DNA of 64,000 bases from positions 49,981 to 113,980 of the IMG/VR virus record IMGVR_UViG_3300042896_000657; one strand, written 5' to 3'. The stretch comes from a virus. Both the position numbers and the translations under genes were made by a program. Numbering within the stretch: position 1 is the stretch's first letter; each line of letters begins with the position of its first letter. The notes under the pieces are model-generated. The model saw nothing but the letters and a program-made list of their open reading frames with translations. It had not been told where the DNA came from and did not search any database. Shown here one piece after another: positions 30,761 to 45,008 of this stretch.

Positions 30761-30764
30761 TAAT

Positions 30765-30842: not shown

Positions 30843-30856
30843 GTAAAATAAAGGTT

Positions 30857-30895: not shown

Positions 30896-31272
30896 AATTT
30901 AAAGATTTATTAGGCAAAACACTTACAAAAATAGATATAGATCATGGTAAGGATACAATTACATTCCATTGTAATGATGAGACTGTATATCAACTATTTC
31001 ATCAACATGATTGTTGCGAATTAGTAACAATTGATGATATTGTTGGTGATTTAGAGGATTTACTTGAAAATCCAATTTTATTAGCTGAAGAAGTCTCAAA
31101 CTACGAACCAACTTCTGAAGAAGATATTAAAAGAACCAAAGAAATAAATGTATGGGGTTCATGTACTTGGACATTCTATAAATTAGCAACTGTAAAAGGA
31201 TATGTCGATATTAAATGGTTTGGTGAATCGAATGGATACTATAGTGAATCTGTAGATTTTAAACAATTGTAA
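30889..31272 (+). CDS. DUF7448-like protein, 127 aa
   Basis: LGKTLTKIDIDHGKDTITFH and a later GSCTWTFYKLATVKGYVDIKW suggest a beta-sheet domain of the kind annotated DUF7448 in phages. An acidic middle (DIVGDLEDLLENP) separates them. Its start overlaps the duplicated leader, so its expression may depend on it. Confidence 0.55.
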   Translation: MVEFKDLLGKTLTKIDIDHGKDTITFHCNDETVYQLFHQHDCCELVTIDDIVGDLEDLLENPILLAEEVSNYEPTSEEDIKRTKEINVWGSCTWTFYKLATVKGYVDIKWFGESNGYYSESVDFKQL

Positions 31273-31281
31273 ATAAAGGTT

Positions 31282-31920
31282 ATGAAAATTACATTAAATA
31301 GAGGTCAAAAATTATGGTTCACTAGTGATACACACTACAACCATTCAAACATCTGTTCATCCACTACTCAATGGACTGATCCTGTAACTTGTAGAGAATT
31401 TAAATCATTAGAATATATGAACACTACATTGGTAAATAATATCAATGAAGTAGTAGGTCAAGATGATATTTTATTCCATTTAGGTGATTGGTCATTTGGT
31501 GGCTTTGAATTCATCCAATTATTCAGAGATCAAATAGTATGTCGTAATGTTCATATCATCACTGGTAATCATGATCATCACATCGAGAGAAACAGAGATA
31601 ATATTAAATCAATATTCAGTTCAGTAAACAAATATTTGGATTTAGATGTAAAGTGGGATGCTGGTAAGCAGAGATTCGCTTTAATGCACTTTCCAATCGC
31701 AAGTTGGGATAATATGGCTAGAGGTGCTATTCATTTACATGGTCATGTTCACTTTGAAGCTAATGCAAGAATTGGAGTTGGTAAGATGATGGATGTGGGA
31801 TGTGATGGAAACGGATTATACCCAATTGAAATGAATGAAGTATTAAGATTAATGAATAAACAACCAATCAAAAGTATGTTTAAATTTGATCATCATGAGA
31901 TTGTTGAAAATTATAAATAA
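31282..31920 (+). CDS. metallophosphoesterase
   Basis: Motifs SDTHYNHSN, HLGDWSFGG, GNHDHH and HLHGHVHFE give the full dinuclear metal site. HFPIASWDN is typical of the phage-encoded subfamily. It differs clearly from the enzyme at 21828 and so is a second phosphoesterase. It is followed after 1 nt by a P-loop kinase gene; a nucleic-acid end-processing role is possible. Confidence 0.85.
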   Translation: MKITLNRGQKLWFTSDTHYNHSNICSSTTQWTDPVTCREFKSLEYMNTTLVNNINEVVGQDDILFHLGDWSFGGFEFIQLFRDQIVCRNVHIITGNHDHHIERNRDNIKSIFSSVNKYLDLDVKWDAGKQRFALMHFPIASWDNMARGAIHLHGHVHFEANARIGVGKMMDVGCDGNGLYPIEMNEVLRLMNKQPIKSMFKFDHHEIVENYK

Positions 31921-31921
31921 T

Positions 31922-32332
31922 ATGAATACAATTATATTTCTTCGTGGACTTCCAGGCTCTGGAAAGTCAACATTCGCTAATTATATGTTTTCAAATAATA
32001 TATTTGAAGCAGATCAATACTTCTATGATGAGGATCGAAATTATAATTTTGATGCTTCTAAATTATATGAAGCTCATAAATGGTGTCAACTTAGAGTTGA
32101 ACATGCTATGGAAGATAACTTAGAATCTAATGGTATGTATTTTTCAGAAATTGTAGTATCTAATACATCAACAACAGAGAAAGAATTAGAACCATATTTG
32201 AAATTAGCTAAAAAATATGATTATCAAGTTGTATCATTAATAGTGGAGAATAGACATGGTAACAAATCAGTTCATAATGTGCCTGAAGAAACATTATTAA
32301 GAATGAAGAATAGATTTTCAATAAAGTTGTAG
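31922..32332 (+). CDS. P-loop kinase (polynucleotide kinase/AAA_33-like)
   Basis: Walker A is GLPGSGKST at residues 9-17. EADQYFYDEDRNYNFDASKLYEAHKWC continues in the manner of N4BP2/Pnk-like kinases with an acidic base after strand 2. With an RNA ligase at 33754 it could phosphorylate broken RNA 5' ends, but nucleotide or protein kinases share this fold. A longer frame begins at 31886, within the upstream gene; the ATG at 31922 fits the protein family. Confidence 0.75.
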   Translation: MNTIIFLRGLPGSGKSTFANYMFSNNIFEADQYFYDEDRNYNFDASKLYEAHKWCQLRVEHAMEDNLESNGMYFSEIVVSNTSTTEKELEPYLKLAKKYDYQVVSLIVENRHGNKSVHNVPEETLLRMKNRFSIKL

Positions 32333-32333
32333 T

Positions 32334-32370
32334 ATCATAATTTATTCCGTATATTAAGGTATAATAATTA
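32334..32370 (+). promoter_or_regulatory. small-gene promoter motif, variant
   Basis: ATCATAATTTATTCCGTATA followed by TTAAGGTATAATAATTAAAA, 11 nt before the next ATG. Confidence 0.45.
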
Positions 32371-32381
32371 AAATAAAGGTT

Positions 32382-32738
32382 ATGAAATATAATAAACAAG
32401 ACATTATTCAGTTAATTGAAGATAGAATATTATCAGAATATAAAAAACATTCAGCATCATTACCTAATGAGTGGGCTAAAATAGCAGCTTATAAAATTTA
32501 TAAATCAATTTCAGATAAAGAGGAAATTGGGTTACTACAAATAGAGCTTAACCACACTAAAACACTTTTGCAAAGTTGTGAAAAAGCATTAGAAGAAAGG
32601 GATAATCAAGATGAAAGAATGTATAGTGATGAAGAAGTAATGAATGCTTTACATAGTGTAGAGTTAAAGTACAACAAAGACTTTACTAAAATCTATGAGG
32701 GTATGAAAGAATGGTTTGAACAATTTAAAAAGAAATAA
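32382..32738 (+). CDS. hypothetical protein with shared C-terminal cassette, 118 aa
   Basis: N-terminal helices with a coiled-coil stretch (ELNHTKTLLQSCEKALEER) are followed by a C-terminal 40 residues (MYSDEEVMNALHSVELKYNK to EQFKKK) that reappear almost unchanged in the protein at 34916. This MYSxxEV ending is common in Bacteroidetes phages. Function is unknown. Confidence 0.65.
   Translation: MKYNKQDIIQLIEDRILSEYKKHSASLPNEWAKIAAYKIYKSISDKEEIGLLQIELNHTKTLLQSCEKALEERDNQDERMYSDEEVMNALHSVELKYNKDFTKIYEGMKEWFEQFKKK
32613..32738 (+). repeat. coding repeat copy A (pairs with 35102-35227)
   Basis: About 126 bp nearly identical to the 3' end of the gene at 34916, differing at a few codons. Confidence 0.85.
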
Positions 32739-32741
32739 GAT

Positions 32742-33350
32742 ATGATAGATAATTTAGAATTAATAAAACCATTACTCAACTTCGATAACGAAGATGATTT
32801 CTATATGTTATATATTTTTAAACGCAAGAAGGATCAAACTGAAGGCGAGAGAGATAATCATCAATCAGTAAGAACTATACGTTCATATTGTATTTCTAGT
32901 ATTGAACAACTAGAGAAACGATATGATGAGATTATCCAATTATGTGAAATGTTTAAAGCAAGAGCATATATTCATATCCAAAAACAAAATCATAAAGATG
33001 TATCTTTAGATATGATGGTTGATCTTGCTCAACGAATTAAAAGCGGACAACATCAACAACAAAATCTATTTGATTCAGTAGTTGGTCAAATGAAAACATA
33101 TGAGAAAAGATGGATTGTTGATATTGATACTAAAGATGAAGATATTATTTTAAATATAAGATATACTATCAATACAATCCGACCTGAAGGTTTAAAAATA
33201 CATCGTACTATTCCAACTAAAAATGGAGTTCATCTTATTACTGATAGATTTGATATTCAGGAATTTAAAAAAATATATCCAGAAATCGATATCCAAAAGA
33301 AAAATCCAACTCTATTATATTATCCTGATTCGTTGGATATTCAGGATTAA
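32742..33350 (+). CDS. conserved phage protein, 202 aa
   Basis: FDNEDDFYMLYIFKRKKDQ, MFKARAYIHIQKQNHKDVSL, RWIVDIDTKDEDI and HLITDRFDIQEFKKIYPEID are landmarks of a widespread phage family of about 200 residues. The WIVDID strand with paired acidic residues recalls primase-like (AEP) folds, but this is only a resemblance. Confidence 0.65.
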   Translation: MIDNLELIKPLLNFDNEDDFYMLYIFKRKKDQTEGERDNHQSVRTIRSYCISSIEQLEKRYDEIIQLCEMFKARAYIHIQKQNHKDVSLDMMVDLAQRIKSGQHQQQNLFDSVVGQMKTYEKRWIVDIDTKDEDIILNIRYTINTIRPEGLKIHRTIPTKNGVHLITDRFDIQEFKKIYPEIDIQKKNPTLLYYPDSLDIQD

Positions 33351-33385
33351 TTACTTATATTTAAGTATAATAAGAAATAAAGGTT

Positions 33386-33586
33386 ATGAGTAAAGAAATC
33401 GAACAACTCCAACAAGAAATTATAGATAATTTAAAAGAACAACTTGATATTAATCAAAATATAATATTAAATCAAGATAAATTGATTTCAAAATATGAAA
33501 AACAATTACAACTATGTTATGCTCATATTGATAATCAAAAAGAAATTATAAGTCAATTTACTGAAATTATAAGTCAATTTTACTAA
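33386..33586 (+). CDS. coiled-coil protein, 66 aa
   Basis: Gln/Glu/Ile-rich heptads throughout (IEQLQQEIIDNLKEQLDINQ), ending in two near-identical repeats of EIISQFT. Overlaps the next start as TAATG. Confidence 0.6.
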   Translation: MSKEIEQLQQEIIDNLKEQLDINQNIILNQDKLISKYEKQLQLCYAHIDNQKEIISQFTEIISQFY

Positions 33587-33750
33587 TGAGAAAAAAAGCG
33601 AGAAAAAAAGCACCGAATAAAACAGTTCAAAGACTATTAGATGAAATAGATAAAGATCCATGGTATATAAAACTAAAACGATGGTTTAGATTACAAATAT
33701 GGGTTTGGAAATGCTTAACTAGAAAATATAATATATTTAAAAAGAAATAA
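33586..33750 (+). CDS. basic protein, 54 aa
   Basis: MRKKARKKAPNKTVQRLLDE then Trp-rich helix (KLKRWFRLQIWVWK) and a Lys-rich end. It is probably nucleic-acid or membrane interacting, immediately upstream of the RNA ligase. Confidence 0.55.
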   Translation: MRKKARKKAPNKTVQRLLDEIDKDPWYIKLKRWFRLQIWVWKCLTRKYNIFKKK

Positions 33751-33753
33751 AAT

Positions 33754-34872
33754 ATGGAAAATAATAATTCAGTTTGCTACGTTGCAAAAATAAATGAAAT
33801 TAAATCTATTGAGGGTGCTGATAATATTGAATTAGCAGTAATTGGAGGATGGAATTGTATTACTAAAAAAGGAGAATACAAAGTAGATGATTTAGTAATT
33901 ATAGCTACTACTGATGCTATTATCCCTCAAAATCTATCAGACGCAATGAATGTAACTAATTACTTACGTAAAGGTGGACGTGTACGTACTGTTAAATTAA
34001 AAGGAGTATATAGTGAATGTTTAATCATCCCTAATAAATTTATATTTACAGAATATTACAAAGAAGGAAGCGATATGATGGATAAATTAAGTATCCATAA
34101 ATACGAACCACCGGTTAAACAAATTCAATTAGCATCAGGCCGTAAGATTAAATATAAGGATAATCCTAACTTCCATGTATATTATAAGTTCCCTAATTTA
34201 AAGAATGTTGATGGAATGTTTACTGTAAATGATATGGTAGAAATCACCCGTAAGATTCATGGTACTAATGCTCGTTATGGTATTGTAAAGAAAACTAAAT
34301 TATCATTATTAGATAAAATTAAAAAATTCTTTGGAAATAAATGGATTGAATATGAATTTATTGTTGGATCCCATAATGTTGAAAAAGGATCTGAATCACA
34401 AGGATTTTATGATACTAACGTTTGGTATGATATTGAAAAGAAATATAATATTAAATCTAAATTATGGAATTGGGTTAGAAGACATAACCCTATAGATATA
34501 GGTGAAGGTATAGTATTATATGGAGAAATATATGGTCCAGGTATCCAAAAAAATTATGATTATGGATTAGATGAGATTAAATTTGCTGGGTTTGATATAA
34601 AGATGAATGGAGAATATCTAAATGTAATCAGAGCTAATTTTATAATTACTCAACCCTTATCACTACCATATGTTGAAATATTACATAGAGGTGTATGGTC
34701 TCAAGAGATACAAGATAAATTCACATTCAATAACTTCATTCCAGGAACTAAAGTACCTGAAGAAGGAATTGTAATTAAACATGTGTCTGGTGAACGCCAA
34801 AGAATAGCTAAAGTCATTAATCCAGACTATAGTATATATAGTGAAAAACATAATGTTGGGGATAGCCACTAA
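33754..34872 (+). CDS. RNA ligase (DRB0094/Rnl5-like)
   Basis: An N-terminal OB-like region (YVAKINEIKSIEGADNIELA, KGEYKVDDLVI) precedes the nucleotidyltransferase core: adenylated Lys in KIHGTNAR (K167), then LYGEIYGPG, EIKFAGFDIKM and EEGIVIKHVSGE. These are motifs I, III, IIIa and IV of the ligase family. It seals RNA ends; with a kinase and metallophosphoesterase nearby it could repair tRNAs cut by host anticodon nucleases. Confidence 0.85.
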   Translation: MENNNSVCYVAKINEIKSIEGADNIELAVIGGWNCITKKGEYKVDDLVIIATTDAIIPQNLSDAMNVTNYLRKGGRVRTVKLKGVYSECLIIPNKFIFTEYYKEGSDMMDKLSIHKYEPPVKQIQLASGRKIKYKDNPNFHVYYKFPNLKNVDGMFTVNDMVEITRKIHGTNARYGIVKKTKLSLLDKIKKFFGNKWIEYEFIVGSHNVEKGSESQGFYDTNVWYDIEKKYNIKSKLWNWVRRHNPIDIGEGIVLYGEIYGPGIQKNYDYGLDEIKFAGFDIKMNGEYLNVIRANFIITQPLSLPYVEILHRGVWSQEIQDKFTFNNFIPGTKVPEEGIVIKHVSGERQRIAKVINPDYSIYSEKHNVGDSH

Positions 34873-34887
34873 TGTGAGCTACCCCAA
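34856..34887 (+). terminator. strong hairpin over the RNA ligase stop codon
   Basis: TTGGGG-TAGC-CAC pairs with GTG-GCTA-CCCCAA (13 bp, two single-base bulges, loop TAAT). The TAA stop begins in the loop. No T-run follows, so it may act as a processing or attenuation element. Confidence 0.55.
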
Positions 34888-34915
34888 TTAATATCGTATA
34901 TTAGTGATATAGATA
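34882..34915 (+). promoter_or_regulatory. small-gene promoter motif
   Basis: CCCCAATTAATATCGTATAT then TAGTGATATAGATA, abutting the ATG at 34916 and overlapping the 3' arm of the hairpin. Confidence 0.45.
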
Positions 34916-35227
34916 ATGAAAAATAAACTAATGGAAAAAGAACAACAAAAACAACATCTTATTGATATGATGAGGGATGATGAGAATCTAGGATTGTATG
35001 AAAATTGGGTTGAAGATGCTGAAAAAGAATCCAACCTATCAGATTTAAACGATAAAGCCAATATTTTTTGGAGTGGATTTAGAGTGGGTGTTAAATCTAA
35101 AGAAAGAATGTATAGTGATAAAGAAGTAATGAATGCTTTACATAGTGTAGAGTTAAAGTACAACAAAGACTTTACTAAAATCTATGAGGGTATGAAAGAA
35201 TGGTTTGAACAATATAAAAATAAATAA
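34916..35227 (+). CDS. hypothetical protein with shared C-terminal cassette, 103 aa
   Basis: The N-terminal 60 residues (MKNKLMEKEQQKQHLIDMMR..) differ from the protein at 32382, while the last 40 residues (MYSDKEVMNALHSVELKYNK to EQYKNK) are nearly the same. This is cassette-like shuffling of C-terminal modules. Its role is unknown. Confidence 0.65.
   Translation: MKNKLMEKEQQKQHLIDMMRDDENLGLYENWVEDAEKESNLSDLNDKANIFWSGFRVGVKSKERMYSDKEVMNALHSVELKYNKDFTKIYEGMKEWFEQYKNK
35102..35227 (+). repeat. coding repeat copy B (pairs with 32613-32738)
   Basis: Near-identical 126-bp module, likely the product of recent gene conversion or recombination. Confidence 0.85.
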
Positions 35228-35228
35228 T

Positions 35229-35402
35229 ATGAAAAAATACTATATAGAAGTAATAGGAGCAAGTAAAGAATTATATACTGTAAAAGCAGACAACATGTTA
35301 ACCAAATCAGATGGCTGTTATGTATTTTATGATGAATATGGATCTATAATAGCATCATATCCAATTGATAAAAGTATAATTAAATCTATTGAAACAAAAT
35401 AA
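35229..35402 (+). CDS. hypothetical protein, 57 aa
   Basis: MKKYYIEVIGASKELYTVKA... is beta-rich, ending IKSIETK. It begins 1 nt after the previous stop; a longer frame from TTG at 35205 lies inside the upstream gene and is not preferred. Confidence 0.55.
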   Translation: MKKYYIEVIGASKELYTVKADNMLTKSDGCYVFYDEYGSIIASYPIDKSIIKSIETK

Positions 35403-35411
35403 TAGTTGCTA

Positions 35412-35450
35412 TGTCATAATTAATATCGTATATTAAGGTATAATAATTAA
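35412..35450 (+). promoter_or_regulatory. small-gene promoter motif, variant
   Basis: GTCATAATTAATATCGTATA then TTAAGGTATAATAATTAAA, close to the copy at 32334. Confidence 0.5.
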
Positions 35451-35464
35451 AATAAATAAAGGTT

Positions 35465-36316
35465 ATGAAAAACATACACTTAATATCAACGGACAAACCA
35501 AGTAGGTTGTGGACTAATAATCTAAAGAGAAGATTAGTATTAGATGAATTTCCCTCTCAACATCCAACCAATATTGCAAAAAACATCTACATCACATCTG
35601 ATGAAGAAATTAAAGAAGGAGATTGGTGCTTAGATATTTTTTTACAAGCTATATTTCAAGCAAATAGTTTTATGGGTATAAAAACTAAAAACACAGCAAG
35701 AAAAATCATTCTAACAACAGACCAAGACTTAATCAAAGATGGTGTTCAAGATATTAATGATGAATTTTTAGAATGGTTTGTTAGGAATCCAAGTTGTGAA
35801 AGTGTTGAGGTTATTAAAGATTTATTTCAAGTAAATCAAAACAATCCTGTATTAAAAGGAAGTACAGCATTAGTAAAACAACATAAAATCATCATTCCAC
35901 AAGAAGAACCTAAACAAGATTTAGAAAAAGAAATGTTTGAGTTAGAACAGGAACTTGATATACCATCATCTATGAGATGGCACAATTCTAAACCTAAACA
36001 AGAAATCAAATTAGAAGATATTTTTAATGATGAAAAGAAACAAGGTGTAAAAGATTTGATTGATGCACATAAACAAGAAACACTTGAAGAAGTAGCTAAA
36101 TCAGAAGCATTTGAATTTAGTGTTGATTATAAACCATGGGAAACAGATTTAGATTATAGAGAATATGCTGAATATGGCTTTGAGAAGGGTTTTATAGAAG
36201 GTGCTAAATACCAAGCTAAAGGAATGTATAGTGAGAAAGAAGTATTAGCAATGTTATTAATTAAGCACAATGGTTTAACTCCACAATATGTTTTAGAACA
36301 ATTTAAAAAGAAATAA
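35465..36316 (+). CDS. conserved Bacteroidetes-phage protein, 283 aa
   Basis: MKNIHLISTDKPSRL, YITSDEEIKEGDWCLD, ARKIILTTDQDLIKDGVQDI and DEFLEWFVRNPSCESVEV are landmarks of a family found in many Bacteroidetes phages and prophages. It ends with a MYSEKEV...LEQFKKK module, the same C-terminal tag style as the proteins at 32382 and 34916. Function is unknown. Confidence 0.8.
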   Translation: MKNIHLISTDKPSRLWTNNLKRRLVLDEFPSQHPTNIAKNIYITSDEEIKEGDWCLDIFLQAIFQANSFMGIKTKNTARKIILTTDQDLIKDGVQDINDEFLEWFVRNPSCESVEVIKDLFQVNQNNPVLKGSTALVKQHKIIIPQEEPKQDLEKEMFELEQELDIPSSMRWHNSKPKQEIKLEDIFNDEKKQGVKDLIDAHKQETLEEVAKSEAFEFSVDYKPWETDLDYREYAEYGFEKGFIEGAKYQAKGMYSEKEVLAMLLIKHNGLTPQYVLEQFKKK

Positions 36317-38276: not shown

Positions 38277-38732
38277 ATGAGAGTAATAGAAAAAGATACT
38301 AGATTTGGTCCACGTAAAGCATACACAAACGTAGAACCATTATATAAAATGTTTACCAAAGGTATACGTGTATTACCAGCACCATATTTTGAGGATCGTA
38401 AAATTATGTTTACTTTTGTTGCACAACACGATCCAGGAACACCTGGTTGGTTAGAAGGTGGATATGAAGTGGCTGGTCCAACAGGTGATTTTAGAGCATA
38501 TTATTTAGACCAGTTAATATTACATCCAGAAATAATTAAACGTCGTCACAAAACAGATATTGAGACGAACAAGTCCGGCTTGAAGCGCGGGCGCAAAGGT
38601 GGGGAACCAAAATTCCCTAAAGTAGGTGGAACAGGAAAACGTGGTAGGCCATCAGTTGATCCAGCATTACGTAAGAATAAACCTTATGTCGCAAATGGTC
38701 TACCACGGGGAAGGCGTAAGAAAGTAGAATAA
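38277..38732 (+). CDS. protein with AT-hook-like basic tail, 151 aa
   Basis: The N-terminal 100 residues form an alpha/beta domain (RVLPAPYFEDRKIMFTFVAQ, GWLEGGYEVAGPTGDFRAYY). The last 40 are Lys/Arg/Gly-rich with GKRGRPSVDP and GLPRGRRKKVE, which resemble AT-hooks that grip the minor groove of A+T-rich DNA. A DNA-packaging or regulatory role next to the repeat region is plausible. Confidence 0.6.
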   Translation: MRVIEKDTRFGPRKAYTNVEPLYKMFTKGIRVLPAPYFEDRKIMFTFVAQHDPGTPGWLEGGYEVAGPTGDFRAYYLDQLILHPEIIKRRHKTDIETNKSGLKRGRKGGEPKFPKVGGTGKRGRPSVDPALRKNKPYVANGLPRGRRKKVE

Positions 38733-38733
38733 G

Positions 38734-38764
38734 TTTTGTCCAAATCAATTTTATATATTAATGG
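38734..38764 (+). promoter_or_regulatory. promoter-like motif, TTTTATATATTAATGG type
   Basis: TTTTGTCCAAATCAATTTTA then TATATTAATGG, the third of three similar leaders (with 37738 and 38244). Confidence 0.45.
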
Positions 38765-38765
38765 T

Positions 38766-38990
38766 ATGGAAAAAGATATGAAAACAAAAATCGAAGAATT
38801 AAGAGAATCAATTGGTAAAATAATGTCACACAACTACAGCCCAATACTTAGAGCAAAGTTAGTTAAAGTGAATAAAGTAACTTGTGTACTTGAAGTAACT
38901 AAAGGTGAATATGTTAAAGATAAAGATTATACTATAGGTATGAGATTTAAAGATAATGTAAGCCATACTTGGAATGCTTTATATTATTAG
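38766..38990 (+). CDS. hypothetical protein, 74 aa
   Basis: MEKDMKTKIEELRESIGKIM... then beta strands (LVKVNKVTCVLEVTKGEYV). The first ATG after the leader is chosen. Unknown function. Confidence 0.55.
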   Translation: MEKDMKTKIEELRESIGKIMSHNYSPILRAKLVKVNKVTCVLEVTKGEYVKDKDYTIGMRFKDNVSHTWNALYY

Positions 38991-39032
38991 TCAGAATCCC
39001 TTTAGTACATTAATGATATAGATAATTAAAAC
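38990..39032 (+). promoter_or_regulatory. small-gene promoter motif
   Basis: GTCAGAATCCC, TTAGTACATTAATGATATAG and ATAATTAAAAC, before the gene at 39041. Confidence 0.55.
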
Positions 39033-39040
39033 AAAACGAT

Positions 39041-39244
39041 ATGACAAACGAACAAAGCCAAATTTTAAGTAAATTAATTGATGCTAAATGGGATTCAGAC
39101 CACCTAGAATCTTATCACGAACGTGATATTGCACGTCAGAATTATTATAATTTAAAACGTGAATTAGTTGAATCAATGGGATTAGATGAATTTATAGAAT
39201 TTATGAATATGGGAGCAAAAATGTTCGCTCCGGCACAATCCTAA
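39041..39244 (+). CDS. hypothetical protein, 67 aa
   Basis: A helical acidic/His-rich protein (DAKWDSDHLESYHERDIARQ). It is the first of the cassette genes, with start context CGATATGAC. Its end overlaps the next promoter motif. Confidence 0.6.
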   Translation: MTNEQSQILSKLIDAKWDSDHLESYHERDIARQNYYNLKRELVESMGLDEFIEFMNMGAKMFAPAQS

Positions 39245-39270
39245 TTGTATATTAACGTATAAGATAAAAC
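39233..39270 (+). promoter_or_regulatory. small-gene promoter motif
   Basis: CACAATCC, AATTGTATATTAACGTATAA, GATAAAAC; start follows after CGAT. Confidence 0.55.
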
Positions 39271-39273
39271 GAT

Positions 39274-39438
39274 ATGAAAACAAATAGAGTAAAAGCATTT
39301 GATTTAAGAGAAGAATTAGAAAATAATCATGGAGTAACTCCAGAAAGTTTATTAAACTATTTAATGGATTGTTGGATGTCAGGGGATGATTCATTACAAG
39401 CAGTAGAGGATTTTAAGAATGATGTTATAAATAATTGA
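39274..39438 (+). CDS. cassette protein, 54 aa
   Basis: MKTNRVKAFDLREELENNHG... is acidic and helical. Start context CGATATGAAA matches the hairpin loops at 42210-42300. No family. Confidence 0.55.
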   Translation: MKTNRVKAFDLREELENNHGVTPESLLNYLMDCWMSGDDSLQAVEDFKNDVINN

Positions 39439-39440
39439 TT

Positions 39441-39480
39441 AATCAGAATCCTAATCGTATATTAACGTATTAGATAATTA
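39441..39480 (+). promoter_or_regulatory. small-gene promoter motif
   Basis: TCAGAATCC, AATCGTATATTAACGTATTA, GATAATTA; 12 nt before ATG. Confidence 0.55.
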
Positions 39481-39492
39481 AAAAACAAAGAT

Positions 39493-39732
39493 ATGAAATT
39501 TATTAGATTAACAAGCCTTAAAGATTCAAAACCAGTATTTATTAATCCAGACTTTATAGGACATATGTTTAGAGTTCCTGAAAAAATGAGTTATGGAAGT
39601 GTTGATGAAGTAGAACATACAACTGTGGGTGTCACAACTCATAATAATGGAGGATTTAAAGTTATAGAAGATGTAAAGCAAATTCTAAAACTGATTGAAT
39701 TGTCAGAATCTCACTCGTACATTAACGTATAA
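39493..39732 (+). CDS. cassette protein, 79 aa
   Basis: MKFIRLTSLKDSKPVFINPD... reads as a beta-sheet protein with a C-terminal helix ending LSESHSYINV. The pattern resembles small flagellar/Hfq-size beta proteins, but no family can be named. Start context AGATATGAAA. The next promoter motif overlaps its 3' end. Confidence 0.6.
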   Translation: MKFIRLTSLKDSKPVFINPDFIGHMFRVPEKMSYGSVDEVEHTTVGVTTHNNGGFKVIEDVKQILKLIELSESHSYINV

Positions 39733-39744
39733 GATAATTAAAAC
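39702..39744 (+). promoter_or_regulatory. small-gene promoter motif
   Basis: GTCAGAATCTCA, CTCGTACATTAACGTATAAG, ATAATTAAAAC. Confidence 0.55.
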
Positions 39745-39753
39745 AAAAACGAT

Positions 39754-39936
39754 ATGAAAAAATTAGATTACGACACATTAGTAATGATTGAAGGTTTAAT
39801 AGATTTAAGAGATTTAGATTTATTTAAAAACGCTTTAGAAAATATTACAAACGATTTAGAAATGGAAGGTTTTGAATTAAGTGATGTCAAAGCATATTTT
39901 CAATTAATATTAAATGAAATATTAGGAGATCAATAG
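39754..39936 (+). CDS. cassette protein, 60 aa
   Basis: Acidic and helical (LVMIEGLIDLRDLDLFKNAL). Start context CGATATGAAA. Unknown function. Confidence 0.6.
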   Translation: MKKLDYDTLVMIEGLIDLRDLDLFKNALENITNDLEMEGFELSDVKAYFQLILNEILGDQ

Positions 39937-39977
39937 TCAGAATCCACCTCGTATATTAATGGTATAGATAATTAAAA
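39936..39977 (+). promoter_or_regulatory. small-gene promoter motif
   Basis: GTCAGAATCCAC, CTCGTATATTAATGGTATAG, ATAATTAAAA. Confidence 0.55.
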
Positions 39978-39987
39978 AAAAAACGAT

Positions 39988-40218
39988 ATGAAAAAATTTA
40001 ACGGTTTCGAAAGTTACAATCTAGTAACAGGTTTAGAATTATTAAGAGAATCTTATTTAGCTGATATTAAAGCAGCTACTGATAAAGGCAAACATCACAT
40101 ATTTAGTGAAAGATTTGCAAATGGTACTATTGATGATTTAATTAAGATTGTTAAAGATAATACTAAAAAGGATAAATACGTATTTAGTCATGAATGTACT
40201 CAATATAAAGAAGTTTGA
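39988..40218 (+). CDS. cassette protein, 76 aa
   Basis: MKKFNGFESYNLVTGLELLRE is followed by charged helices and a C-terminal Cys (SHECTQYKEV). Start context CGATATGAAA. Unknown function. Confidence 0.6.
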   Translation: MKKFNGFESYNLVTGLELLRESYLADIKAATDKGKHHIFSERFANGTIDDLIKIVKDNTKKDKYVFSHECTQYKEV

Positions 40219-40234
40219 TAAAAAACAATAGATT

Positions 40235-40312
40235 ATGTGGGGATTAAATTGTAAATATTATACTAAAACATTTAATTCATTAGATGAATTAATTGAGGAT
40301 ATTATGAGTTAG
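40235..40312 (+). CDS. possible peptide, 25 aa
   Basis: MWGLNCKYYTKTFNSLDELI... follows the previous gene by 16 nt (GATTATG). Short; kept because it fills the gap and has coherent composition. Confidence 0.35.
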   Translation: MWGLNCKYYTKTFNSLDELIEDIMS

Positions 40313-40314
40313 GA

Positions 40315-40389
40315 ATGGATCCAAATTATGAAATAGTCAGAAATGGAAAAATAACCAGCGAAATGGCTATTGATTTTATTGTATTTTAA
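40315..40389 (+). CDS. possible peptide, 24 aa
   Basis: MDPNYEIVRNGKITSEMAID... directly follows the 25-aa frame and ends at the next promoter motif. Confidence 0.35.
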   Translation: MDPNYEIVRNGKITSEMAIDFIVF

Positions 40390-40390
40390 T

Positions 40391-40435
40391 AGTCAAAATC
40401 CAACTCGTATATTAACGTATAAATAAATAATTAAA
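40391..40435 (+). promoter_or_regulatory. small-gene promoter motif
   Basis: GTCAAAATCCAA, CTCGTATATTAACGTATAAA, TAATTAAAA. Confidence 0.55.
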
Positions 40436-40444
40436 AATAAAGAT

Positions 40445-40804
40445 ATGACAAAAGAAGAAACATTACACACATTAAGAACCATGAATTTAGTTGGTTCAGT
40501 TTCATTAGGACTTGATAGTGTTATAGCATTGGTTGAGAGTTTAGATTTAATTGAAGTAACTACAGTTAGTGATGAATCTAAAAGTTTAGTAATTAATCAA
40601 TTAATTGAAGAGTTAGATAATGATAACATAGGAGATTTTATGTTAATGCCATCTTCTAATCAAATAATGGATTGTATTGATGATTTTGAAGTTAATATAT
40701 ATGATAAAAGAATTGAACTTGAAGAAATTTATATTGATGAATATAAATTAGCAGAGTTAATTCAAGATGGTGTGAAAAAATGGTTGAATGATAGATTGTC
40801 CTAA
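40445..40804 (+). CDS. cassette protein, 119 aa
   Basis: An acidic protein with repeated Leu/Ile helices (ESLDLIEVTTVSDESKSLVI). Start context AGATATGAC. Its 3' end overlaps the zinc-motif gene that follows. No recognised family. Confidence 0.6.
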   Translation: MTKEETLHTLRTMNLVGSVSLGLDSVIALVESLDLIEVTTVSDESKSLVINQLIEELDNDNIGDFMLMPSSNQIMDCIDDFEVNIYDKRIELEEIYIDEYKLAELIQDGVKKWLNDRLS

Positions 40805-40961
40805 ATGCGAAGGCTCAGGCTTTCGCTCTGTAGAATCATCCAGCACATATAATGATATAGAATACAATAAACCTAATATACAGGTACCATGTATTGCCTG
40901 TAAAGGTGCTCGTCAAGTTACTAAATTGAAGGCATTTCATATTAATAAGAAATACAAATAG
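40788..40961 (+). CDS. DnaJ-type zinc-motif mini-protein, 57 aa
   Basis: Two CxxCxG motifs (CPKCEGSGF at residues 4-12 and CIACKGAR at 35-42) reproduce half of a DnaJ cysteine-rich zinc site. Such stand-alone zinc peptides occur in phages and may bind nucleic acid or protein. Start is ATG within the upstream gene's last codons. Confidence 0.6.
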   Translation: MIDCPKCEGSGFRSVESSSTYNDIEYNKPNIQVPCIACKGARQVTKLKAFHINKKYK

Positions 40962-41003
40962 TCACAATCCTAATCATACATTGACGGTATAGATAATTAA
41001 AAC
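40961..41003 (+). promoter_or_regulatory. small-gene promoter motif
   Basis: GTCACAATCCTAA, TCATACATTGACGGTATAG, ATAATTAAAAC. Confidence 0.55.
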
Positions 41004-41010
41004 AAACGAT

Positions 41011-41295
41011 ATGAACAGAGAACTATTTTTAGAAAGTACATTAAGCCAAATTTCACAAGTTTATTCAGGCAAAAATCATAATTGTAGATGTGGTTGTGCA
41101 GGATCTTATACTGCAACTTCATTTATGGATGAACCTAGAGATGATATTAATGATAAGTTAGTAGAAAGAAGATTAAAGAAAGCGAAAGCATTAATTTTAA
41201 ATGGTGCTAATGTTGATTATGCTGAAACTTATGTTAATGTTGAAACTGGAGATAATAGAGCTTTGACATTCTATTTTGATGAAGTAAGAGCTTAG
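41011..41295 (+). CDS. conserved phage protein, 94 aa
   Basis: A Cys cluster (NCRCGCAGSY at about residues 24-33) and a C-terminal alpha/beta part (RLKKAKALILNGANVDYAET, VETGDNRALTFYFDE) are seen in a number of phage proteins of this size. Function is unknown. Start context CGATATGAAC. Confidence 0.65.
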   Translation: MNRELFLESTLSQISQVYSGKNHNCRCGCAGSYTATSFMDEPRDDINDKLVERRLKKAKALILNGANVDYAETYVNVETGDNRALTFYFDEVRA

Positions 41296-41330
41296 TCACA
41301 ATCTCTCTCGTATATTAATGGTATAATAAG
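41295..41330 (+). promoter_or_regulatory. small-gene promoter motif
   Basis: GTCACAATCTCT, CTCGTATATTAATGGTATAA; it could also drive the RNA locus that follows the gene. Confidence 0.5.
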
Positions 41331-41337
41331 AAACGAT

Positions 41338-41637
41338 ATGAAAAAAACAAATAAATCAGCAGACGGAACATCATTCCACAACACAATGATTAAAACCACA
41401 ATTGGTGAATTAGTAAGAGTATTAGGTGAACCAACTTATCAACAAAATACAGGTAAAGATAAAGTGAATGTAGAATGGGTTTGTGAAACTATTGATGGTA
41501 ATGTAGTGACAATCTATGATTGGAAAGAATATATTACACTAAGTGAAAATGAAGAAATATTATTTCATTTGGGTGGTCACAGTTTAATCCATACATTGGA
41601 TGGTAAGGATGAATTATTAAGATTATTAGAAAAATAG
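41338..41637 (+). CDS. conserved phage protein, 99 aa
   Basis: KTTIGELVRVLGEPTYQQNT...KVNVEWVCETIDGNVVTIYD is a pattern of phage proteins with an alpha/beta fold; the C-terminus has HLGGHSLIHTLDGKDELLRL. Function unknown. Start context CGATATGAAA. It lies immediately upstream of the second RNA locus. Confidence 0.65.
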   Translation: MKKTNKSADGTSFHNTMIKTTIGELVRVLGEPTYQQNTGKDKVNVEWVCETIDGNVVTIYDWKEYITLSENEEILFHLGGHSLIHTLDGKDELLRLLEK

Positions 41638-41642
41638 GGTTA

Positions 41643-41705
41643 TGTGTTGTTGTTCAGGATACATAAATGCAAAAGTGAACATGGCGACTCGGAAAGACGA
41701 GTAAC
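41643..41705 (+). CDS. possible Cys-rich peptide, 20 aa
   Basis: MCCCSGYINAKVNMATRKDE behind GGGTTATG. An alternative reading is that this stretch is structured RNA, since ACTCG/CGAGT and TGTTCA/TGAACA pair. Confidence 0.2.
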
Positions 41706-41710
41706 AATAT

Positions 41711-41851
41711 AGTCAGGTGGTGAAATTGGTAGACACGCTAATGTAGGCATCTTTAAGATGGACGATTGTACTCCGCAGGTTCACGTTAGTTTATTCTAAA
41801 GAGATATGAGTACACTTAATAGAATTACAGGTTCGAATCCTGTCCTGACTA
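41711..41851 (+). tRNA. tRNA-Leu-like element 7 (hypervariable interior)
   Basis: Family ends with D arm TGGTGAAATTGGTAGACACG; interior hairpin CATC-TTTAA-GATG. 141 nt. Confidence 0.6.
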
Positions 41852-41858
41852 CAGCAAA

Positions 41859-41943
41859 TTAGAAGTGTCGCAATACGCGTTTCAATCTAATTGATAGACG
41901 TATCAATGAAATATGTTCGGAGGTGAAAATCCTTAGCTTCTAA
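41859..41943 (+). other. self-closing structured spacer
   Basis: TTAGAAG/CTTCTAA closes TTGATA-GACG-TATCAA and a small GGA/TCC hairpin; it fills the gap between elements 7 and 8. Confidence 0.45.
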
Positions 41944-41946
41944 AAT

Positions 41947-42054
41947 AGTCAGGTGGCGCAATTGGTAGCCAAAAAGGGATGTTGAAGGTAGTAGTAATAC
42001 TCCGCCTCGAACAAGTGTAGGCGACTTTTACAGGTTCGAGTCCTGTCCTGACTA
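41947..42054 (+). tRNA. tRNA-Leu-like element 8 (hypervariable interior)
   Basis: Family ends (D arm GGCGCAATTGGTAGCC, T loop TTCGAGT). Interior hairpin GCCT/AGGC. 108 nt. Confidence 0.6.
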
Positions 42055-42081
42055 CCAGGTCGGTTGTAAGTGACATCCCAG

Positions 42082-42095
42082 AAGTTATGGAACTT
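42082..42095 (+). other. spacer hairpin
   Basis: AAGTT-ATGG-AACTT between elements 8 and 9. Confidence 0.4.
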
Positions 42096-42102
42096 TCAAA
42101 TT

Positions 42103-42208
42103 AGTCAGGTGGCGGAATGGTAGACGCTATCTAAAAGATCATATGAAAGGGTGATATAAGACTGAAACGAATAAACCCAATCTACAGGTTCGAGTCCTGT
42201 CCTGACTA
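42103..42208 (+). tRNA. tRNA-Leu-like element 9 (hypervariable interior)
   Basis: Family ends; the interior holds ATATGAAA at 42141-42148, complementary to the loops of the hairpins directly downstream. Confidence 0.6.
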
Positions 42209-42209
42209 C

Positions 42210-42364
42210 AACGCGTTTCATATCCGCGTTACAAACGACGAAAGGTCTTCATATCACCTTAGTCACGATGACTTAGTACATGCACCGTTTCATATCCGGT
42301 TTGAGGTTGGAAAAGTCATTTATTTTAATTATCTAAAGCACCTAAGCCGCTCTCGCGGCTTTTG
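42210..42364 (+). ncRNA. candidate antisense RNA with three start-codon-complementary hairpins
   Basis: AACGCG-TTTCATATC-CGCGTT (42210-42230), AAGGT-CTTCATATC-ACCTT (42242-42260) and ACCG-TTTCATATC-CGGT (42284-42300) have unrelated stems but share the 8-nt loop core TTCATATC. This is the reverse complement of GATATGAA, the start context of many neighbouring small genes. A fourth hairpin AGTCA-CGA-TGACT lies between the second and third. An intrinsic terminator ends the unit. I infer an RNA that pairs with ribosome-binding regions. Confidence 0.6.
42344..42364 (+). terminator. rho-independent terminator
   Basis: AAGCCGC-TCTC-GCGGCTT followed by TTT ends the tRNA-like/antisense RNA locus. Confidence 0.85.
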
Positions 42365-42407
42365 GTGTTGGATTTAACGCATAACACCGTTTATTCAATG
42401 GTGTTCT

Positions 42408-42450
42408 GTCATAATCACCATCGTACATTGACGGTATAGATAATTAAAAC
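42408..42450 (+). promoter_or_regulatory. small-gene promoter motif
   Basis: GTCATAATCACC, ATCGTACATTGACGGTATAG, ATAATTAAAAC, restarting transcription after the terminator. Confidence 0.55.
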
Positions 42451-42460
42451 AAACAAAGAT

Positions 42461-42637
42461 ATGAAACTATTAACATTCCCAATCGCGCAATCAAAAAAAT
42501 CAATTTCAATAATTGTAAATTCAAACAAATTAAAATCTGAAGTAAAGATACTATATCCAAACAAAATAATTGTTGATTTAGTTGATTTATTAGTTATTGA
42601 AAAAATGTTGGATCGTAATTACTTAAACTATAGATAA
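42461..42637 (+). CDS. cassette protein, 58 aa
   Basis: MKLLTFPIAQSKKSISIIVN... is a small alpha/beta protein with Lys clusters. Start context AGATATGAAA. Confidence 0.55.
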   Translation: MKLLTFPIAQSKKSISIIVNSNKLKSEVKILYPNKIIVDLVDLLVIEKMLDRNYLNYR

Positions 42638-42670
42638 TCACAATCCACCTCGTACATTAACGTATAAGAT
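42637..42670 (+). promoter_or_regulatory. small-gene promoter motif, short form
   Basis: ATCACAATCCAC, CTCGTACATTAACGTATAAG, then ATATG directly; the ATAATTAAAAC tail is missing. Confidence 0.5.
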
Positions 42671-42787
42671 ATGAATGATATGAAAACAATACAAATTACA
42701 CAAGATGAAATCCGAATGGCTACAAGGCCTAATGTTTATAGAAGTAAAAAACATTATACACGTAAATCTAAACATAAAACATTATAA
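42671..42787 (+). CDS. cassette protein, 38 aa
   Basis: MNDMKTIQITQDEIRMATRP... ends very basic (SKKHYTRKSKHKTL). The second Met (42680, context GATATGAAA) may be the real start. Confidence 0.5.
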   Translation: MNDMKTIQITQDEIRMATRPNVYRSKKHYTRKSKHKTL

Positions 42788-42795
42788 ATAAAGAT

Positions 42796-42999
42796 ATGGA
42801 ATTAACAGAACAACAAAAACAAACAGTATTAGATATTTTATCATTTGCTGATGGTGAGGATATGGAGGAAATAATTGATAGATCTACATTTAAAGATTAT
42901 TTAACAAGATCATTAATTATGGATTGTATAGATGATATAGATTTAAAATATTACTTATCTGAACGTGATGAATTAATTAAAATCTTAAAAAATAGATAA
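42796..42999 (+). CDS. cassette protein, 67 aa
   Basis: Acidic (FADGEDMEEIIDRSTF)-type helical protein beginning MELTEQQKQTVLDILS. Start context AGATATGG. Unknown function. Confidence 0.55.
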   Translation: MELTEQQKQTVLDILSFADGEDMEEIIDRSTFKDYLTRSLIMDCIDDIDLKYYLSERDELIKILKNR

Positions 43000-43001
43000 A
43001 T

Positions 43002-43187
43002 ATGTTTGAAGAACAAGTATTTTGGAAAGATGGAGTTGATGGTGAATTTAAGGGTGGAATATTCATTAGAGCATTTGATTTAGTAAAGTTTCTAGAGAAA
43101 GTCGAAGCTGATAGTGAAGGTGGTGAAGTTGTTGGATTAAAGTTTGATGGCAATAATCTAGAGATAATCGTTAAGTCAGAATCCTAA
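43002..43187 (+). CDS. cassette protein, 61 aa
   Basis: MFEEQVFWKDGVDGEFKGGI reads as a beta-rich protein and is acidic throughout. It follows the previous gene by 2 nt and shares its promoter. The next motif overlaps its end. Confidence 0.55.
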   Translation: MFEEQVFWKDGVDGEFKGGIFIRAFDLVKFLEKVEADSEGGEVVGLKFDGNNLEIIVKSES

Positions 43188-43212
43188 TCGTACATTGACG
43201 GTATAGATAAAA
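43174..43212 (+). promoter_or_regulatory. small-gene promoter motif
   Basis: GTCAGAATCCTA, ATCGTACATTGACGGTATAG, ATAAAAAG. Confidence 0.55.
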
Positions 43213-43216
43213 AGAT

Positions 43217-43384
43217 ATGAACATAGAAAAAGTAAAGCAAGCCGTAGAATTACAAAAACAAATGAATACTGATATTGATGTATTTGGATGTACTAGTGAG
43301 TATAATTGTAAAATGGTAGAGCGCTTAGTTGATAATATGAGCGATGAAGAAGGCGATTTATTTATAGAATTAATGAATGGATAA
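43217..43384 (+). CDS. cassette protein, 55 aa
   Basis: MNIEKVKQAVELQKQMNTDI... then MVERLVDNMSDEEGDLFIEL, an acidic helical protein. Start context AGATATGAAC. Confidence 0.55.
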   Translation: MNIEKVKQAVELQKQMNTDIDVFGCTSEYNCKMVERLVDNMSDEEGDLFIELMNG

Positions 43385-43422
43385 TCACAATCCCCCTCGT
43401 ACATTGACAGTATAGATAAAAA
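43384..43422 (+). promoter_or_regulatory. small-gene promoter motif
   Basis: ATCACAATCCCC, CTCGTACATTGACAGTATAG, ATAAAAAG. Confidence 0.55.
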
Positions 43423-43425
43423 GAT

Positions 43426-43662
43426 ATGAATATGACCCAAGAAGAAATTTACCAAGCACAACAAGATCACAAGGAATACCAGAGGTTGATCAACACGGTT
43501 GAAATATTAACTCAAGCAGAATATGAATTCTGTAAGGCATGGGATGATGAGGAAACTTGGAAATACCTATTCGATTTAACTGGTGGTAGATGGTTAAACA
43601 CTAACGTGTATAGTGAGGCTGAGCATCACGATCATATCTATAGAATGGAATGTGGCTTGTAA
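43426..43662 (+). CDS. cassette protein, 78 aa
   Basis: Aromatic and acidic (YEFCKAWDDEETWKYLFDLT) with a His-rich end (SEAEHHDHIYRM) that could bind metal. Start context AGATATGAAT. Confidence 0.6.
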   Translation: MNMTQEEIYQAQQDHKEYQRLINTVEILTQAEYEFCKAWDDEETWKYLFDLTGGRWLNTNVYSEAEHHDHIYRMECGL

Positions 43663-43663
43663 T

Positions 43664-43705
43664 GTCACAATCCATTCAGTATATTAACGTATTAGATAAT
43701 TAGAT
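43664..43705 (+). promoter_or_regulatory. small-gene promoter motif
   Basis: GTCACAATCCAT, TCAGTATATTAACGTATTAG, ATAATTAGA. Confidence 0.55.
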
Positions 43706-43710
43706 AAGAT

Positions 43711-43905
43711 ATGAAACAAAATCCAATTAATGTAAGTGAATTAAATGAAGATAGATATGAAATTATTAATAATTTAGTTAATATTGAATTAGTTAAAAAA
43801 TTTATTAATGATGTCGAAGCGTTAGAAATTGATTTAATGAAATCAAATATCCAAGCAAAAGAAATATATCAATATTTGTTAACAATAATGGTTAATCAAT
43901 GTTAG
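43711..43905 (+). CDS. cassette protein, 64 aa
   Basis: A helical acidic protein (MKQNPINVSELNEDRYEIIN). Start context AGATATGAAA. Unknown function. Confidence 0.55.
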   Translation: MKQNPINVSELNEDRYEIINNLVNIELVKKFINDVEALEIDLMKSNIQAKEIYQYLLTIMVNQC

Positions 43906-43909
43906 AATA

Positions 43910-43952
43910 GTCAGAATCACCATCGTACATTAACGTATTAGATAATTAAAAC
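43910..43952 (+). promoter_or_regulatory. small-gene promoter motif
   Basis: GTCAGAATCACC, ATCGTACATTAACGTATTAG, ATAATTAAAAC. Confidence 0.55.
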
Positions 43953-43961
43953 AAAAACGAT

Positions 43962-44192
43962 ATGATCACAAAAACACAATTAAAAGCCGGATTACAATTC
44001 AGGTACAAAACAATGAAATACACACTTAAAGGTGAAGAAGATCAATATTATATTATTGGAGGTGGTTTAATGGGTTATGTAGGTAATGTAGAATCAATAG
44101 GAACCAAGTCATTTACATTATATACCTATGTAATGGGTAAAGCAGTTAAGGTAAAGGTTAATTATAGTGATTGTGAGTTGGTGGTTGAATAA
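43962..44192 (+). CDS. cassette protein, 76 aa
   Basis: Beta-rich with regular alternation (GGGLMGYVGNVESIGTKSFT), probably a small barrel. Start context CGATATGAT. Unknown function. Confidence 0.6.
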   Translation: MITKTQLKAGLQFRYKTMKYTLKGEEDQYYIIGGGLMGYVGNVESIGTKSFTLYTYVMGKAVKVKVNYSDCELVVE

Positions 44193-44234
44193 CCCCAATT
44201 CACCTCGTACATTAACGGTATAGATAATTAAAAC
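44191..44234 (+). promoter_or_regulatory. small-gene promoter motif
   Basis: ACCCCAATTCAC, CTCGTACATTAACGGTATAG, ATAATTAAAAC. Confidence 0.55.
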
Positions 44235-44237
44235 GAT

Positions 44238-44483
44238 ATGAAAAACGAAATCAATAATATTAGTATTTGTGAATTAATGGATATCATCTTTCCTGGTTAT
44301 TGGGACAAGCAACTATACACTCAGATGTCTTATGATGATGAATGTAAAGCAGTGGGTGAATGGTGTAGGATTAATAATTATGTTCTTTATGAAAAATGTA
44401 ATGAAGATTACTTTGAGTGGGAAGCATTCCAACTAGCCACTACTGGTAGATATGATGGGGTGGTATTAAGTAACTTAAGTTAA
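44238..44483 (+). CDS. cassette protein, 81 aa
   Basis: MKNEINNISICELMDIIFPG then acidic helices with several Cys and Trp (AVGEWCRINNYVLYEKCNED). Start context CGATATGAAA. Unknown function. Confidence 0.6.
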   Translation: MKNEINNISICELMDIIFPGYWDKQLYTQMSYDDECKAVGEWCRINNYVLYEKCNEDYFEWEAFQLATTGRYDGVVLSNLS

Positions 44484-44493
44484 ATGAGTTGCC

Positions 44494-44537
44494 TGTCAGA
44501 ATCATAATCGTACATTGACGGTATAGATAATTAAAAC
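44494..44537 (+). promoter_or_regulatory. small-gene promoter motif
   Basis: GTCAGAATCATA, ATCGTACATTGACGGTATAG, ATAATTAAAAC. Confidence 0.55.
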
Positions 44538-44546
44538 AAATAAGAT

Positions 44547-44717
44547 ATGAACAAGCAAACACTTTCAAAATTAATCGAAATCACATTAGCAGACACTAAT
44601 GAGTTATTTAAAAACAAAACCGAATCAGAGGCTTATATAATTGGATACCTCCAAGGTACACTAAAAACGATTCAAAAAGAATTAAATGAAGGTTTATTTT
44701 ACGGTATAGAAAAATAA
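44547..44717 (+). CDS. cassette protein, 56 aa
   Basis: MNKQTLSKLIEITLADTNEL... is helical with a basic centre. Start context AGATATGAAC; its end (AAGATATG) forms the leader of the next gene. Confidence 0.55.
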   Translation: MNKQTLSKLIEITLADTNELFKNKTESEAYIIGYLQGTLKTIQKELNEGLFYGIEK

Positions 44718-44720
44718 GAT

Positions 44721-45008
44721 ATGACAAAGACAGAACGCAACAAAACAATCAACAAATTAGTCTACAAATATGCTGAATCATTAGGCTATGAGGTGGATAT
44801 GAGTGAGATAGATGTTAATTTCATCCCCGAATCAGGTAATATGGATGATTGTATTGAATATAGAAGATCATCACACTCAGTGGCTGCCTATAATTGGGCA
44901 TGTGCAAAAACATTGAATGATGAAAAGTTGATTGAGGATTATATTGATGATGTGAGTGTGTTAAGTGATGATGAATTAGCTGATCAAATGCGTGCTGTAC
45001 AAAAATAG
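44721..45008 (+). CDS. cassette protein, 95 aa
   Basis: A basic start (MTKTERNKTINKLVYKYAES) passes into acidic helices (DEKLIEDYIDDVSVLSDDEL). It is the last gene of the small-gene tract; start context AGATATGAC. Confidence 0.6.
   Translation: MTKTERNKTINKLVYKYAESLGYEVDMSEIDVNFIPESGNMDDCIEYRRSSHSVAAYNWACAKTLNDEKLIEDYIDDVSVLSDDELADQMRAVQK

Follow-up and report, generated by a model that had tools for sequence, protein, structure and literature searches.

A Bacteroidota-type phage carries, directly downstream of a tRNA-like element, three hairpins whose loops are complementary to the start-codon leaders of a tract of small genes, and related units recur in other phages with loop and leader matched. 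We judge it probable that this unit encodes a noncoding antisense RNA acting in trans, which extends from the tRNA-like element to a terminator and whose loops mask the start codons of a leader-defined gene set. Comparison of sequences establishes the unit, its structure, its strand and its complementarity, as well as the matched way in which loop and leader differ from one phage to another. The window (the whole 64,000-nucleotide stretch analysed here) covers bases 49981-113980 of the 113,980-base IMG/VR virus record IMGVR_UViG_3300042896_000657. The nearest named relatives found for this phage belong to Immutovirus, a genus of Flavobacterium phages, with 44% identity in a baseplate protein and 44% in one small cassette protein.

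Three hairpins with one loop and unrelated stems

Between 41.7 and 42.4 kb, all on the + strand, three consecutive tRNA-like elements are followed by three hairpins and then by a terminator-like hairpin. Hairpin 1 (42210-42230; AACGCG, loop TTTCATATC, CGCGTT) has a 6-bp stem and a loop at 42216-42224; hairpin 2 (42242-42260; AAGGT, loop CTTCATATC, ACCTT) has a 5-bp stem and a loop at 42247-42255; and hairpin 3 (42284-42300; ACCG, loop TTTCATATC, CGGT) has a 4-bp stem of marginal stability and a loop at 42288-42296. The initial annotation had described three hairpins with different stems and one loop core, and its sequences and coordinates are exact. The stems are unrelated, and every loop is precisely 9 nt long, with the consensus YTTCATATC. 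When 42209-42378, the stretch that follows the tRNA-like element and includes the terminator, is folded, all three hairpins form and their loops are mostly unpaired (loops 1 and 2 unpaired, loop 3 for the most part), with pair probabilities of ~0.8-1.0 for hairpin 1, 0.84-0.99 for hairpin 2 and 0.65-0.73 for hairpin 3. A 101-nt sub-window of the hairpin region folds differently.

Not one of 3000 shuffles of 41641-42400 repeated a 9-nt-loop hairpin core even twice, against three occurrences of TTCATATC observed, and TTTCATATC has no + strand occurrence in the 114-kb record outside hairpins 1 and 3. Together, these results exclude a chance origin of the hairpin set. Other cores that recur three or more times across the window are limited to tRNA T-loops and a single AT word of low complexity.

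Loops antisense to the starts of a gene tract

The complement of the loops, GATATGAA, lies at the starts of 13 genes between 39274 and 44547, nine of which carry the full GATATGAAA, a count given in the initial annotation that we reproduce. These 13 genes account for 14 GATATGAA sites, as one ORF has two alternative starts, 42671 and 42680. Across the window, GATATGAA is observed 25 times versus 6.5 +/- 2.8 in shuffled sequence (0/100 shuffles reach 25). The proposed regulon (38775-44728, + strand) comprises small genes with a promoter-like cassette, CGTAYATTRACG..TAGATAATTAAAA, and the leader GATATGA; its genes start at 38778, 39041, 39274, 39493, 39754, 39988, 40445, 41011 and 41338 in the first part and at 42461, 42671/42680, 43217, 43426, 43711, 43962, 44238, 44547 and 44721 in the second. 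At 39271-39279 (+ strand), for example, the target site GATATGAAA is complementary over 9 nt to both loop 1 and loop 3. None of the ten regulon proteins tested has a PHROG match.

The leaders sit in longer repeated cassettes (promoter-like CGTAYATTRACG..TAGATAATTAAAA..GATATGAAA). Because these cassettes are duplicated, the number of leaders is not independent evidence of regulation, and such evidence has to be sought in the hairpins and in other phages. It is this repetition that lends some support to the idea that the match arose by chance or merely accompanies the duplication of leader cassettes. We find that idea scarcely credible, since only the loop word is common to the hairpins, in antisense and within different stems, an arrangement never met in shuffles, and since the unit recurs in other contigs, more than 20 in number, with stem covariation that disfavours accident. 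The exact cassette pattern CGTAYATTRACGGTATAGATAA had no match in IMG/VR.

Of the 23 GAT leaders in the window, 19 are grouped near the unit, between 38.3 and 44.7 kb, and all 14 GTT leaders are found outside this tract. The two types, GTT-ATG and GAT-ATG, are segregated within one phage genome, occupying tracts at 21828-35465 and 38277-44721, respectively. A TTCATAAC loop for the window phage's own GTT genes was not found in the 114-kb record, itself a fragment, and this weakens the case.

The loop-leader duplex is predicted at -8.7 kcal/mol when matched versus -5.2 kcal/mol for the other leader class. The shortness and A/U-rich composition of the loop-leader duplexes (-7.5 to -10 kcal/mol) also tell against the model, although loop-initiated pairing does make use of such duplexes. 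In shape the loop resembles the U-turn loops known from antisense RNAs, its UUCA fitting the YUNR motif. YUNR U-turn loops are reported to speed RNA-RNA pairing (PMC4485353, citing Franch 1999). Plasmid antisense RNAs with such loops differ from the phage RNA in being mostly cis-encoded and having one target.

Recurrence of the unit in other phages

A unit consisting of a tRNA-like element, a hairpin with a 9-nt loop and a terminator is present in >20 other viral contigs, a number reached by scans in which the two key loop bases were left free; these scans yielded no 9-nt-loop unit with a different combination of bases at the two positions. In L123, located via the gene upstream of the array, a 53-nt tRNA-like element leads directly into TACAGGA, loop CTTCATATC, TCCTGTA, after which come a second, unstructured TTTCATATC and the terminator; the leaders are GATATGA, as in the window. 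In L151 and L156, the first to emerge from a scan for the tRNA-like 3' end, AACTG, loop CTTCATAAC and CAGTT are followed by a strong terminator, and GTT-ATGA is among the leaders of these phages or dominant in them. The tRNA-like element lies 0-20 nt upstream of the hairpin in most units and ~140 nt upstream in L330, where a promoter-like CGTATATT..TATAAT stands immediately 5' of it. L353 has two units with different stems, and the L333 contig has a second unit, seen as L513. The description of the RNA as 'multi-headed' fits the window phage, with its three hairpins, and does not extend to relatives, which have one hairpin per unit and sometimes two units. In L151, L156 and L353 the unit comes after a gene with a similar C-terminus in all three, which we take from its sequence, without a family search, to be a DUF932 gene.

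Phages bearing the unit have Bacteroidota-type hosts and are mostly known only from metagenomes; no cultured phage with the unit was found. In immuto, a cultured relative whose genome is complete, the leaders are GTT-ATG and the unit is absent; the leader can therefore occur without the RNA, which weighs against the model. A region of the immuto genome (MW353176.1, ~66230-66800; L490 16230-16800) is unannotated and holds many irregular ACCCGTT/ACCCGTC repeats. Searching the units against named phages by blastn returned short tRNA or chance matches only, and a scan of genome contigs with the tRNA-like/loop pattern revealed the unit in none among the matches listed.

In a separate group of contigs (L255, L281, L283, L289, L302, L323, L325, L349, L351 and L586), the shared tRNA-like end precedes another conserved sequence, which has a 7-nt loop of TTCATCA, TTCATTA or TTCATCG plus AGTATGYCCAATACGATGAGAAG. 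In L283 this sequence is embedded in a dense tRNA array, without any Rfam match of its own. No leader matches the 7-nt loops (TTCATCA, also TTCATTA, TTCATCG and TTCATCT).

A pattern of three TTCATATC words gave at least 119 matches in viral contigs and was rejected, the parts inspected being repetitive sequence and not hairpins; the equal 80-nt spacing is therefore regarded as coincidence. Repeats in contigs L003-L119, many of them with a 36-nt periodicity like that of coding sequence, contain TTCATATC at intervals resembling those of the three loops and can mislead searches by pattern. A generic search for hairpin loops containing CAT was dropped as too noisy.

Matched loops and leaders and covarying stems

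Leaders were tabulated for the cassette genes of each contig, on the hairpin strand only, because raw whole-contig 8-mer counts are too contaminated by coding matches. The 20 tabulated contigs with a YTTCATAAC loop have 147 GTT and 10 GAT among their pooled cassette leaders, and GTT-ATG is the commonest or joint commonest in every one (20/20, with ties in L287, L331 and L353). The two contigs with a YTTCATATC loop, those of the window phage and L123, have 16 GAT and 3 GTT, with GAT-ATG the commonest. Leaders are mixed in several contigs of the GTT group (L151, L287, L331 and L353). The difference between the groups hits the complementary base in both partners, namely five loop copies and the whole leader set. 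Loops that differ while leaders stay unchanged would, according to the initial annotation, have refuted its proposal; such cases were looked for, and GTTATGAA leaders were found to go with TTCATAAC, and GATATGAA leaders with TTCATATC. The co-change may nevertheless be one evolutionary event, as there are only two loop/leader states and contigs of the same group are related rather than independent.

Across 16 distinct hairpins, 95% of stem cells are paired (57.6% in shuffles), 28 cells are double changes (9.1 in shuffles), and all five pairs change on both sides. The covariation score is 0.97 versus 0.23 for shuffled hairpins and collapses in slid controls. The loop, by comparison, is fixed in length and invariant at six bases and the final C, giving the motif YTTCATAWC. 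These compensatory stem changes, along with the matched loop/leader states, support the earlier suggestion that the loops are under selection for pairing with start leaders. Three G-U stem cells, in the L279, L285 and L287 types, become A-C on the other strand; these pairs exist only on the + strand and so point to it as the strand of the RNA.

The loop itself invites another explanation, in which the hairpin imitates the anticodon arm of a tRNA with a CAU anticodon (initiator, elongator Met or Ile2), acting, for example, as a decoy that draws off an anticodon nuclease or a modification enzyme, and the leader match follows from the shared CAU. TTCATAA is indeed laid out like an anticodon loop (U33, CAU, A37), the hairpin comes after a tRNA-like element, and the phage's own tRNA-Met loop is CTCATAA. 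Mimicry is improbable, in our view, given a loop that is always 9 nt and not 7. Nor does it predict that the TTCATATC loop of the window phage and L123 should be changed at the very base matching the leader change, and it leaves the antisense tails of some units unexplained.

tRNA-like elements upstream of the hairpins

The unit begins with a tRNA-like element, which was omitted from the RNA as first proposed. The window has three on the + strand: element 1 (41711-41851; AGTCAGG ... GGTTCGAATCCTGTCCTGACTA; Rfam tRNA 40.9 bits), with no anti-leader hairpin after it; element 2 (41947-42054; 28.6 bits, slightly below the gathering score of 29); and element 3 (42103-42208; 37.4 bits), directly 5' of the hairpins. 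A counterpart of element 3 is also directly 5' of the hairpin in relatives, and element 3 probably forms the 5' part of the RNA or serves as its processing module. The acceptor and T-arm consensus is present in the window elements (28.6-40.9 bits, two of the three above the gathering score), and these arms are shared with tRNA (Rfam RF00005), whereas the middle consists of unrelated inserts of variable length. ARAGORN calls none of the three, so that a recognisable cloverleaf with an anticodon is missing, and Rfam gives no match at the gathering score in the hairpin region besides tRNA.

The tRNA-like family (41711-42208 in the window, L150-L269 and others) combines an invariant acceptor, AGTCAGG/CCTGACTA, and T arm with unrelated middles. 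Its 177 distinct members range from ~53 to 190 nt and can be dense, as many as six lying within 5 kb in contig L158; ARAGORN calls a tRNA in 39 of the 177, with scattered or undetermined identities. The sequence is absent from five bacterial genomes tested for host origin. Such elements could punctuate transcripts for RNase P/Z.

Within the tRNA-like element, ATATGAAA had been put forward as a possible self-regulating partner of the loops. This is unsupported, as L353 has a near-identical insert but the loop TTCATAAC, with which the full match is lost. The insert of element 3 (AGATCATATGAAAGGGTGATATAAGA..GAATAAACCC, 42103-42208) is nearly identical in L353 at ~820-975. Because L353 and the window phage differ in both loop and leader, this near-identity points to a function of the insert's own or to a recent origin.

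Terminator and antisense tail

The initial annotation placed a terminator after the hairpins, and it is real: the intrinsic-terminator-like hairpin GCACCTAAGCCGCTCTCGCGGCTTTTGGTGTT (42338-42369, + strand) has same-place terminators in relatives, and 42325-42378 folds at -22 kcal/mol (z -5.7), with a T-run of merely TTTT. Upstream of it, the linear segment TTTTAATTATCTA (42323-42335, + strand) is a 13-nt antisense of the cassette-gene 5' UTR TAGATAATTAAAA and the only antisense copy of TAGATAATTAAAA in the window. The longest antisense run of the window spacer against the 5' UTR is 15 nt, reached in 0/2000 shuffles, and the spacer has an antisense match of at least 8 nt to 12 of 17 leaders. Tails antisense to the 5' UTR are also found in L123 (p 0.001) and L304 (p 0.002), and this complementarity is absent in L151, L156, L305 and L330. 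As tail-leader duplex energies, own versus other, are mixed, we claim a tail for the window, L123 and L304 only.

The same segment, read from the other side, is a promoter-like TAGATAATTAAAA at 42335, and the minus strand might then be the active one, its loops displaying GATATGAAA as decoys for a leader-binding protein. TAGATAATTAAAA does occur only once on the window's minus strand, precisely at this position, and the three hairpins fold on that strand too. We nonetheless give a minus-strand product very little credence: the terminators, the orientation of the tRNA-like elements and the G-U pairs all indicate the + strand, the minus-strand motif is missing in most relatives and is explained as 5' UTR antisense, and no homologue of the T4 protein RegA was found in five of these records, with a positive T4 control. 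TTTTAATTATCTA is better read as an antisense tail, because the unit has the colinear order that an antisense RNA needs, with start-codon loops 5' and 5' UTR antisense 3'.

Proposed mechanism and comparison with known regulators

Under the antisense model, a transcript through the tRNA-like element would end at the terminator, and tRNA-like processing would free a short RNA exposing one to three anti-start loops, with the tRNA-like element probably serving to process or stabilise it. The 9-nt loop would pair in trans with mRNAs of the phage itself, over positions -3 to +5/+6, and in the window phage and some relatives the linear tail would also pair with the 5' UTR just upstream. Pairing would cover the AUG and most likely block ribosome binding or initiation, a step inferred by analogy with the csRNAs (PMC3091779) and RegA. 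One RNA would thereby dampen or time translation of all small genes with the common leader, and three loops would raise its valency. Transcription, processing, trans pairing and repression by the RNA all remain inferences in the absence of transcript data; control over the translation of a whole phage gene block is the probable outcome. Bacteroidota mRNAs lack SD sequences and have initiation tuned by the bases just before the AUG (PMC6847099), which makes the start region a natural address.

The comparative evidence is silent on the sign of the effect, and a tRNA-like element could recruit a factor. The RNA might therefore pair with the leaders and activate, protect, localise or titrate the mRNAs, with no translational repression. 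Such an outcome is unlikely, though it deserves more weight than mimicry of an anticodon arm, as the AUG itself is covered, the standard blocking arrangement of csRNAs (PMC3091779) and of RegA sites (PMC3014915).

Trans antisense RNAs with anti-start-codon segments (csRNAs) and RNAs with several recognition motifs (LhrC) are already known. In the csRNAs of Streptococcus (CiaRH regulon), an exposed sequence complements initiation regions, including an anti-AUG CAU, and a block of initiation has been proposed (PMC3091779). The phage RNA likewise has an exposed sequence complementary to the start-codon region. However, csRNAs are chromosomal, carry anti-SD and anti-AUG sequences in an unpaired region between two stem-loops and have no tRNA-like element, whereas the phage RNA comes from a Bacteroidota-type phage, holds its word in a 9-nt loop and differs in loop bases with the leader between phages. 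An anti-SD linker and a Streptococcus host, the marks of a csRNA, are both lacking: the loop word targets non-SD GNNATGAA leaders, and the relatives point to Flavobacterium phages. LhrC of Listeria blocks translation through several redundant recognition motifs, in a loop, a single strand and the terminator (PMC4132741), and so resembles the phage RNA in having several motifs in one molecule. LhrC, in contrast, is bacterial, directs CU-rich motifs against SD sequences and has copies that are several homologous genes; redundant CU-rich (UCCC) motifs are not present in the phage RNA, where the motif is YTTCATAWC, with no Rfam match but tRNA.

T4 RegA represses ~30 early mRNAs at the AUG region, and its SELEX site contains GUUAUG (PMC3014915). 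It is thus one phage factor acting at the AUG, and GUUAUG is the word of the GTT leader class, but RegA is a protein, and the likeness is in working only. Searches for a RegA (PF01818) homologue found none in 13 phage records (the window record and 12 related ones, several of them fragments; T4 control 2.3e-75). Our searches, confined to open-access papers, uncovered no phage-encoded, tRNA-like-linked RNA with a loop that follows the leader word shared by a set of genes.

Implications

The phage RNA family may constitute a master translational switch, an RNA counterpart of RegA in non-SD bacteria, in which loop and leader form a co-evolving address code that differs between phages; we hold the evidence for this broader proposal to be evenly balanced. 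If it is true, many phage genes would be controlled at once by an RNA that reads the start-codon leader in non-SD hosts (PMC6847099). The RNA would then be a natural, addressable anti-start-codon regulator with its specificity set by one or two loop bases, and it would suggest a role for the degenerate tRNA-like elements scattered through such genomes.
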